This document shows, piece by piece, positions 15,137-17,430 of a stretch of DNA of 64,000 nucleotides. The notes beneath the pieces were generated by a model. That model saw nothing but the letters and a program-made list of their open reading frames with translations, did not search any database and was not told the origin of the DNA. A program made the translations under genes and the position numbers. The DNA comes from Mammaliicoccus sp. Dog046 (GTDB taxonomy: Bacteria > Bacillota > Bacilli > Staphylococcales > Staphylococcaceae), in the NCBI RefSeq assembly GCF_034039665.1, contig NZ_CP120131.1, positions 2,162,499 through 2,226,498 of the forward strand, in the 5' to 3' direction. Numbering within the stretch: position 1 is the first letter of the stretch; the number at the start of each line of letters is the position of its first letter.

Positions 15137-15349
15137 AATATCTCCTTTAATTTAAATGTTTTATTTAGTTCATTGATTATATTCTTTTTACTTACATAAT
15201 CCAAGAAGGCAATAAAATAAGCCTAGGTACATATTTTCGTACTTTTGTGATGTATATGACTTTTCAGTAATATTTTCGAAGGAAAAAATTTTATCATTAG
15301 ACAAATTTCACTTTATTCGTTATTATAAGGGAACAATAAAATAGCTCGT

Positions 15350-15452
15350 AATCTTATTTAGAGTAGGTGGAGGGAATTGGCCCGAAGAAACCTCAGCAGC
15401 AGGCGTTTGCACTGTGCTAAATCCAACAAGTGATACTTGAAAGATAAGAAGA
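15350..15452 (+). ncRNA. SAM-I (S-box) riboswitch
   Basis: P1 is formed by TCTTATT (15352) with AGATAAG (15442). Between them lie the S-box conserved blocks in order: AGAGTAGGTGGAGGGA, TTGGCCCGAAGAAACC, CAGCAG and GTGCTAAATCC, then GAAAGATAAG. All of these match the SAM-I aptamer consensus. When it binds S-adenosylmethionine it normally terminates transcription. A terminator hairpin follows directly. The AAGAAG after P1 can pair with CTTCTT inside the terminator arm to give the antiterminator. Confidence 0.92.
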
Positions 15453-15459
15453 ATCTCTA

Positions 15460-15497
15460 GACAGCTCTTCTTAATTTTAAGATGAGCTGTTTTATTG
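15460..15497 (+). terminator. Expression-platform terminator of the SAM riboswitch
   Basis: ACAGCTC and GAGCTGT enclose a secondary pair TCTTAA/TTAAGA and are followed by TTTATT. The 5' arm overlaps the predicted antiterminator partner. Confidence 0.85.
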
Positions 15498-15523
15498 TAA
15501 CTCAAACTTTAGGAGGCAATAAT

Positions 15524-15745
15524 ATGAGAACAAGAGAAGATATTTTAGCAGATTTAGATGAATTAAAGGAACACCCACCTAATAATTGGGCGTCCTCAAT
15601 TGGAAGAACACAACAGAAAAGTGCACTACTTGCTGAACTTAGAAAGTTAGAATCCGACTACGTCCCAAGCAACCAAAATCATCATGATGATCAAACGATT
15701 CAGTTCAATGAATTTGAAATTAATATTAGAATAACGAAGAAATAA
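15524..15745 (+). CDS. Small riboswitch-controlled protein of unknown function
   Basis: 73 residues from the ATG at 15524, seven bases after a perfect AGGAGG. An ATG further upstream at 15482 lies inside the terminator stem and is not a start. The N-terminal half is a charged helix (REDILADLDELKEH). A central motif NNWASSIGRTQQKSALLAEL follows, then a His/Asp-rich linker (NQNHHDD) and a beta-like tail. No signal or membrane segment is present. It is the only gene behind the SAM riboswitch, since a strong terminator follows. SAM control suggests a role in methionine, cysteine or SAM economy, but no family is recognised. Confidence 0.8.
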   Translation: MRTREDILADLDELKEHPPNNWASSIGRTQQKSALLAELRKLESDYVPSNQNHHDDQTIQFNEFEINIRITKK

Positions 15746-15758
15746 ATGAACACGCACG

Positions 15759-15795
15759 AATGCCGACAAAGCAATATACTTTGTCGGCATTCATG
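15759..15795 (+). terminator. Intrinsic terminator of the riboswitch-controlled gene
   Basis: GAATGCCGACAAAG and CTTTGTCGGCATTC are perfectly complementary over 14 bp with a 7-base loop. The T-run is poor, but the stem is strong. Confidence 0.75.
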
Positions 15796-15810
15796 CTATT
15801 AAAAACAAGC

Positions 15811-15946
15811 AAAAAAAATAAGCTAACTATATTTGCCGTATAGTTAGCTTCAAACACTAAGGTTCGTTTGGTAATCACATCCACAGTGTGAGCCTTTACT
15901 CGATAGTCATCAGCGTACTCTAAAACCTGATGGCTATTTTTAATAC
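15811..15946 (-). ncRNA. Candidate small regulatory RNA, about 136 nt
   Basis: On the minus strand, a TTGGTA-N17-TAATAT promoter leads into a 5' stem ATAGCCATCAG / CTGATGACTAT with a 13-base loop. A region with further short dyads (TCACAC..GTGTGA-type, AAAC..GTTT) follows. The end is a perfect 11-bp stem AGCTAACTATA/TATAGTTAGCT with loop CGGCAAA and a U-run. No open frame in it resembles a protein. Promoter, internal structure and intrinsic terminator together support an independent transcript. I do not recognise a known family. Confidence 0.55.
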
Positions 15947-15952
15947 AATTAA

Positions 15953-15981
15953 ATATTAACATTACACTTACTATTTACCAA
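15953..15981 (-). promoter_or_regulatory. Promoter of the candidate small RNA
   Basis: Minus-strand TTGGTA (15981-15976) and TAATAT (15958-15953) are separated by 17 bases. They point into the structured region at 15946. Confidence 0.5.
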
Positions 15982-16074: not shown

Positions 16075-17430
16075 TTAAATTAAAGCGTCGTTTCCTTTTT
16101 CTTGTTCAACTAATTTTCTATCGTATATTTTAATGAATGGGAACCATACTAAGAACGCGACTGCCCCACAAATAAGTGCTACGACAACTGCTGTAAAACT
16201 GCCGGCAGTACCGATAAATGCACCAAACCCGATTGGCGATGGCCAAGGTACTTGCGCAATAATCGGTTTAACAATTTCTAACTTGATCGCCCAATAACCA
16301 ATAGATGCTGAAATCATTGGTGCTAAGAAAAATGGTATCGCTAAAAATGGATTATAAACAATCGGCAAACCGAATACTAATGGTTCATTAATATTGAAAA
16401 TACCTGGTGCTAATGCTGCTTTACCTAATACTTTCAGTTGTTCGGATTTTGCTAAGAATGCGATAAAGATACACATACCTAACGTTGCTCCTGATCCACC
16501 CATGATTGCGAATGAATTTGGGAATTCTCCGGCAAATGGTATATTTGCTCCATCAATATTTAATTGCATATTAGAAAGCAAGATTGGTGTGATGAATGCT
16601 CCGATAATATTAGCACCGTGAATACCTACAATCCAAAGTGCGTGAATTAAGAAGTATATAACCAATATACCAATCCAACTACTTGTTAAATAAACAACAA
16701 ATCCAAATGGTACTGCAATAATTTTAAAGATATCTGTATTTAATGCGACTAAAATACCAGTGAATATTAACACAACAAATGCTACTAAAAAAGCAGGTAT
16801 TAATGCTGTGAATGATCTTGAAACACCTTCTGGAACGGCTTCAGGCATTTTAATAATCCACTGACGCTTTACACAGAGACGATATAATTGAACTGCGATA
16901 ATGGCCATAACGATGGCAGTGAAGATACCTGTCGTTCCTAATCTACTGACACCGTCACCTGACATTTCCCAACCGTTAAATATATTGACGTCTTTCTTCA
17001 TTATATTAACTACTACCATTTTCCCATCTTCAATGACTAACTGAGGAATAGCCATAAAGAACGCAAACATTGATAATAATGCACCGTTCAATGGATTTAC
17101 TGCTAAGTCTTCCTCATCTGCATAAATCTTCGTATACTCGTAACCGATAACTAAACAGAAATATAATGCCAATATCCCCATTGTTGCTTTGTTCGCTAAC
17201 ATATACAAGTCACCGATTTTAAAGAACGTATTATTCCAAATGCCTTCTAATGCTGGAATTGTTTGTGGTATTACGTTCAATACTAAGAACATCGATCCGA
17301 CAATTGTAAATGGTATACATGCCATCCCGGCTGCCATAATTGCCCTAACAATTCTAAATGATGCAACTTTCCCCATTGGACCCATTAAATATTTCTCTAA
17401 TAAAGCAAACACTTTGTTTTCCGACCCCAT
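16075..17430 (-). CDS. PTS lactose/cellobiose-family EIIC permease
   Basis: 451-residue membrane component of a lactose/N,N'-diacetylchitobiose/cellobiose-family phosphotransferase system. About ten membrane helices are visible. The family's conserved substrate-binding segment FNINEPLVFGLPIVYNP is at roughly residues 345-361, and GIHGANIIGAF is near 270. The length is normal. It is the last gene of a minus-strand operon with an EIIA gene and a truncated 6-phospho-beta-glucosidase, so the sugar is probably a beta-glucoside such as cellobiose. No EIIB gene is found in the operon, so the permease depends on an EIIB from elsewhere or is not functional. Confidence 0.9.
   Translation of the reverse strand: MGSENKVFALLEKYLMGPMGKVASFRIVRAIMAAGMACIPFTIVGSMFLVLNVIPQTIPALEGIWNNTFFKIGDLYMLANKATMGILALYFCLVIGYEYTKIYADEEDLAVNPLNGALLSMFAFFMAIPQLVIEDGKMVVVNIMKKDVNIFNGWEMSGDGVSRLGTTGIFTAIVMAIIAVQLYRLCVKRQWIIKMPEAVPEGVSRSFTALIPAFLVAFVVLIFTGILVALNTDIFKIIAVPFGFVVYLTSSWIGILVIYFLIHALWIVGIHGANIIGAFITPILLSNMQLNIDGANIPFAGEFPNSFAIMGGSGATLGMCIFIAFLAKSEQLKVLGKAALAPGIFNINEPLVFGLPIVYNPFLAIPFFLAPMISASIGYWAIKLEIVKPIIAQVPWPSPIGFGAFIGTAGSFTAVVVALICGAVAFLVWFPFIKIYDRKLVEQEKGNDALI

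Follow-up and report, generated by a model that had tools for sequence, protein, structure and literature searches.

The S-box (SAM-I) riboswitches usually control genes for enzymes and transporters, and small proteins are known from other responses to nutrient shortage, such as FbpA, FbpB and FbpC of the Bacillus subtilis iron-sparing response, which is under iron/Fur control. In staphylococci, in which the control of methionine synthesis has already been studied for S. aureus, the main methionine operon is under T-box and not S-box control, according to PMC3771891. Another report describes genes for small sulfur carriers of the ThiS/MoaD type that adjoin some O-acetylhomoserine sulfhydrylase genes (PMC1779556). 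The locus described here lies in a window of 64,000 nucleotides, the whole stretch of DNA analysed, from Mammaliicoccus sp. Dog046 (contig NZ_CP120131.1, positions 2,162,499 to 2,226,498). As in the SAM-I methionine regulon, an aptamer, an antiterminator and a terminator precede the gene, and three of the four other SAM-I targets in the host genome are methionine genes; unlike in that regulon, the target is a small protein without an enzyme or transporter family. Its likeness to FbpA/B/C, drawn by description alone, lies in a small protein that is produced upon nutrient shortage and presumably targets other gene products, whereas control is exerted there by iron/Fur and here by a SAM riboswitch.

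The sole Rfam match in the whole window, by cmscan at the gathering threshold, was the SAM-I family (RF00162), located on the plus strand at 15351-15450 at 72.6 bits (cut-off 44.4, E 4.6e-15) and covering the full length of the model (positions 1-108 of 108). The aptamer, P1 included, was predicted to fold with -23.9 kcal/mol. On the same strand, a predicted antiterminator helix at 15440-15478, alternative to P1 and to the terminator, reached -6.6 kcal/mol when 15440-15484 was folded, and a leader terminator hairpin was predicted at 15460-15491 (-16.0 kcal/mol), after which U-rich sequence extends to about 15497; this hairpin was absent from the list of a simple pattern scan. According to the energy predictions, antiterminator and terminator are mutually exclusive, sharing overlapping bases, and both lie before the start codon. 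An earlier sequence-only reading of this DNA had recognised these three elements and proposed a covariance search, and the strong SAM-I match and the folds agree with it. Judging from the SAM-I class and the terminator, SAM binding would switch transcription OFF at high SAM and leave it ON at low SAM. Upstream, a consensus scan found a promoter-like site (TAGACA-17-TATTAT, 10/12 matches) on the plus strand at 15298-15326, which is weak on its own because 15140-15960 contains seven such sites, compared with 4.0 on average in shuffled sequence.

The gene behind this leader (15524-15745, plus strand), with an ATG at 15524 and a stop codon ending at 15745, encodes a small protein of 73 codons, designated P0001, and is supported by its translation, its homologues and purifying selection among relatives. 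A Shine-Dalgarno sequence, AGGAGG, was read directly at 15511-15516 on the plus strand. A longer frame from 15482 was disfavoured, since its start falls within the terminator. On the 3' side, a strong hairpin occupies 15754-15796 and belongs to the structure predicted for 15740-15815 (-27.0 kcal/mol); on the plus strand it is followed by TATTAAAA, with no T-run, and the pattern scan called it as a terminator on the minus strand only. The gene had been described as closed off by a strong terminator, of which the strong hairpin stands but the U-tract on the gene's strand does not, so that transcription termination for P0001 at this site is uncertain. The P0001 gene and the next large frame, at 16075-17430, converge. 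Another hairpin, which has a T-run behind it on the minus strand, lies at 15820-15850 of the window and probably terminates this convergent gene.

Homologues were sought by protein alone, and SAM-I was looked for afterwards by cmscan. Relatives of P0001 were found across the Staphylococcaceae (the home family), in family f4, in one f2 genome and in the Planococcaceae, which we take family f6 to be; Tetzosporium and Chryseomicrobium, with which f6 is placed, are Caryophanaceae in NCBI. The genus of the host, whose genome has 2.57 Mb, is represented by 8 genomes in the collection. A single-sequence search with P0001 matched 21 of the 108 home-family genomes, and profile searches matched 55/108 and 57/108; further out, they matched 73 of 157 genomes in the order, 24 of the 398 sampled from the class and 19 of the 261 belonging to f6. 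No relative was found in the genome contigs collection with P0001 as query. A collection scan with a single member (L137) matched Tetzosporium hominis, Chryseomicrobium aureum and C. excrementi, and tblastn gave no plasmid match with one member from genus g5 as query and no phage match with one second paralogue as query. This genus is read as Staphylococcus from the Staphylococcus sRNA sau-13, carried by the loci of eight g5 genomes.

A SAM-I riboswitch lay directly upstream of 88 homologue copies in all, counted from the protein matches. These comprised the solo copy in each of the 53 home-family genomes having one, three second paralogues (L050, L051, L075), 12/12 copies in f4, one in f2 (G108) and 19/19 primary copies in f6. 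The linkage goes beyond chance, since home-family genomes have only 3-10 SAM-I riboswitches each under strict filters. The gene, taken at first for an orphan, therefore belongs to a conserved family of the Staphylococcaceae, f4 and the Planococcaceae, and the pairing of frame and riboswitch, whose conservation had been proposed as a check, is maintained across it. The small protein is dispensable, because about half of the 108 home-family genomes have no solo copy.

Among 91 scored leaders, which include L161-L163, apparent duplicates of other genomes in the set, the chosen start lay 66-81 nt past the aptamer in 88; in the three exceptions (L043, L055, L136) it was picked wrong or is unusual. 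A lax cut-off was used in this leader scan for placing starts only. The leader-terminator scan called a hairpin with a T-run in 72 of the 91 leaders; those without a call were L136, whose gene is broken, and 18 g5 leaders, and a weaker hairpin was visible by eye in L026, L041, L061 and L065, the four uncalled g5 leaders inspected in full. Broken or shortened members were also present among the 88 copies: the G080, G319 and G676 copies carry in-frame stops, and those in G013 and G011 end early. The copies without SAM-I were metY-linked, decayed or doubtful, including a decayed copy in G048 (L108) and a second copy in G663 (L160). Low-scoring matches with several stops were found in G111, G113 and G114, and a second partial match in G052 corresponded to a frame of 38 residues.

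The P0001 family is under purifying selection, its codon changes being mostly synonymous. Twenty-eight close pairs were compared, 25 of which had a synonymous change (dS above 0), and dN/dS was 0.02-0.31 in 24 of these informative pairs and 0.57 in one pair with three changes; the L043/L049 pair was computed with the odd L043 start. The conserved core of about 40 residues consists of a helix, a loop and a second helix, with the loop signature P-x-[SN]-x-x-[SG]-x-[MI]-x-[KR]. Residues were counted on 87 members (the 91 minus three duplicates and the broken L136), with the corrected L043 in the alignment. Position 28 in P0001 numbering was K or R and position 39 was I or L in 87/87, position 24 was S, G or A in 86/87, position 26 was M or I in 82/87, position 19 was P in 71/87, and position 31 was basic in 63 percent. 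The C-terminus varies by lineage while the core persists across families. In the P0001 model (mean pLDDT 76, pTM 0.50), the helical hairpin is followed by a short C-terminal beta hairpin of low confidence; in the model of an f6 member (pLDDT 89, pTM 0.49), the C-terminus is one long helix, and g5 members have a short C-terminal tail.

The earlier description of the 73-codon frame as one without a known family has held, and searches of Pfam, NCBIfam, PHROGs and PDB sequences did not identify the product as a known methionine-pathway component or give any convincing match. P0001 itself had no NCBIfam match, and its best Pfam score was 13.8 bits against a cut-off of 23.5, obtained with Siah-Interact_N, which was set aside. 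This N-terminal domain of the Siah-interacting protein (PF09032, 2a26) is likewise a helical hairpin and ranked first in VIA-align with rmsd 1.2 over 46 residues and Z 5.8, a value within the tool's chance range for helical models. Altogether, the fold comparison returned generic helical hairpins only, and Foldseek returned nothing at E<=0.001. The relatives showed scattered weak matches in Pfam, NCBIfam and PHROGs, with a best E of 0.0018 and no family matched by more than three members, and the best PDB sequence matches had E 0.51 and 0.018. Also set aside as weak were the topoisomerase 6z01 (E 0.018), PF12795 (0.0021) and phrog_28362 (0.0018), each of the latter two found in one member, and L29-like ribosomal protein entries among the fold and profile results.

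A related small protein with the core P-x-N-x-A-A-x-[MF]-x-K-x-x-K surfaced in the wider profile searches. Its profile gave 16 matches, eight of which were solo copies and eight of this metY-linked type, intact in 7 of the 108 genomes and decayed in one (G075). All seven intact copies are found in SAM-I-led clusters beside metY, the O-acetylhomoserine sulfhydrylase gene (TIGR01326, over cut-off). In G038, G024, G059 and G053, the order is SAM-I, metY and the small protein homologue. In G092, G039 and G081, metY is followed by SAM-I and then by a monooxygenase, a symporter, a tautomerase-like protein, the small protein and a DJ-1/PfpI protein; the three genomes share this order, and the SAM-I-led cluster (L112/L115 at G092:C1:386401-392500, L287 in G039 and L288 in G081) looks like an organosulfur scavenging cluster. 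A profile match identified the monooxygenase as Bac_luciferase (its partial sequence scored below the cut-off of the NtaA/DmoA family), and the DJ-1/PfpI protein was likewise identified by profile, in the G038 copy; the symporter and the tautomerase are readings of the sequences. The neighbours of the solo copies differ between clades. In one g5 clade, the solo gene of eight loci is followed on its own strand by a T-box at a distance of 0.1-1.7 kb. A methionine synthase-type gene is seen in seven of these loci and was identified in L058 as a 5-methyltetrahydropteroyltriglutamate--homocysteine methyltransferase (NF005085, over cut-off).

The host genome has five SAM-I riboswitches, including the one before the P0001 gene. 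The others precede genes for a MetN-type ABC ATPase, which scores under its NCBIfam cut-off, metX of the staphylococcal type, metK and an amidohydrolase. Host MetY is encoded at C1:2148947-2150209, about 28 kb from the P0001 gene, and none of the five riboswitches is nearer to it than the one at P0001. MetY (E <= 1e-100) was found in 69 of the 108 home-family genomes. The solo protein and MetY were both present in 46 genomes, the protein only in 7, MetY only in 23 and neither in 32 (Fisher p 1e-6). With the seven metY-linked copies added, the corresponding counts were 51, 7, 18 and 32 (p 2e-8), an association that is partly built in because these copies adjoin metY. Within g5, the counts for solo copies were 32, 1, 21 and 30. 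Since the genomes are related, each trait was also simulated, independently of the other, along a metK tree comprising all 108 genomes, and the observed association was matched in 3 of 2000 simulations for solo copies and in 0/2000 for solo or metY-linked copies; with MetY fixed as observed, 0/2000 simulations reached it in either case. The protein and MetY thus co-occur beyond shared ancestry in the home family. MetY was the only gene compared and may simply stand for methionine prototrophy in general. The solo-copy genomes without a MetY match at 1e-100 were G006, G008, G011, G020, G022, G023 and G056.

Based on the computational results for the switch, its pairing with the gene, selection on the protein, the metY linkage of relatives and the co-occurrence, the following role is tentatively proposed, at somewhat less than an even chance. 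With plentiful SAM, the riboswitch would halt transcription of the solo gene, and with scarce SAM transcription would pass; the product, a small helical-hairpin protein whose loop signature is conserved, would be induced at low SAM and serve the homocysteine/methionine branch as a partner or regulator through contact with another protein, most likely MetY. Action in homocysteine/methionine synthesis is suggested by the metY-linked relatives and the co-occurrence with MetY, which also lend support to the factor in sulfur or methyl metabolism postulated by the sequence-only reading; protein contact and MetY as target are inferred from association. The solo genomes without MetY, the genomes with MetY only, the clade-varying neighbours, the generic fold matches and the lack of a solo copy in about half of the home-family genomes count against this role. 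In a more specific version, which we regard as rather unlikely, the protein, made only at low SAM, would relay the riboswitch by binding MetY, or a partner from the O-acetylhomoserine pathway, and would confer SAM-responsive control on it also in genomes that, like that of the host, have no SAM-I at MetY. A single riboswitch class would then have a protein effector of its own.

The clade-dependent neighbours of the solo gene and its presence in some genomes without MetY would also suit a SAM-sparing factor, made at low SAM to restrain or mark SAM-consuming enzymes such as methyltransferases or MetK, and small proteins are used in a comparable way in metal-sparing responses; such a role is unlikely, however, as the metabolic links point to metY and a methionine synthase-type gene and to no methyltransferases. 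The basic residue at position 28 in all 87 members, the frequently basic position 31 and the T-box leader downstream in one clade would fit a hairpin protein that binds RNA or DNA and adjusts met mRNAs, for instance at T-box leaders. General nucleic-acid binding is argued against by the overall charge, which is unconserved, since isoelectric points span 4.9-9.9 across members (computed with the odd L043 start) and P0001 has 5.5, and no DNA- or RNA-binding family was matched at its cut-off, which makes this explanation decidedly doubtful.

It could also be supposed that the RNA is the functional product, the terminated riboswitch acting in trans as an sRNA, as known for a riboswitch in Listeria, and that the frame is a passenger or a leader peptide. 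This is very improbable and largely excluded by the strong reduction of non-synonymous change in the frame, by the core kept across families while the C-terminus diverges, and by the relatives that persist in metY clusters away from the leader. The metY linkage itself recalls the ThiS/MoaD-type carriers that, according to PMC1779556, adjoin O-acetylhomoserine sulfhydrylase genes elsewhere, and a sulfur carrier for MetY would resemble them in being encoded by a small gene beside metY. This explanation is scarcely tenable, since a C-terminal Gly-Gly occurs in 0/87 members, 71/87 have no cysteine, and both models are helical hairpins without a beta-grasp (pTM 0.50 and 0.49).

The riboswitch class is known, and the small protein family was not found described in the literature searched. 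A comparative study from 2004 reportedly dealt with methionine regulation. No account of such a gene was found in the available parts of the literature, and an unnamed entry may exist in that study or in the supplementary regulon tables of PMC3766115. That a small protein recurs in three or more families of Bacilli, with 88 copies placed behind a SAM-I riboswitch of their own, implies a so far undescribed step or control in the homeostasis of methionine and SAM, for which the metY linkage of relatives and the co-occurrence provide a concrete, testable target. In staphylococci, a SAM-sensing protein could join two regulatory inputs, because the main methionine operon uses a T-box and not an S-box.

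Some further loci were observed. In the host genome, the SAM-I riboswitch L002 (G000:C1:672704-672803) precedes the amidohydrolase gene (TIGR01891), which is not a standard methionine gene. In L022 (G013), the frame ends early and the profile match continues in frame beyond the stop, into a strand conserved in relatives. The L063 and L076 genes (G017 and G021) encode proteins of 117-128 aa without SAM-I that match the A1 profile and miss A2; their C-terminus resembles the core signature, and they adjoin a gene that reads as ArsD-like. Finally, in the Chryseomicrobium/Tetzosporium group (L137, L138, L161), a glycerate kinase gene, identified in L161, begins some twelve bases downstream of the small gene, so that the riboswitch may control this gene too.
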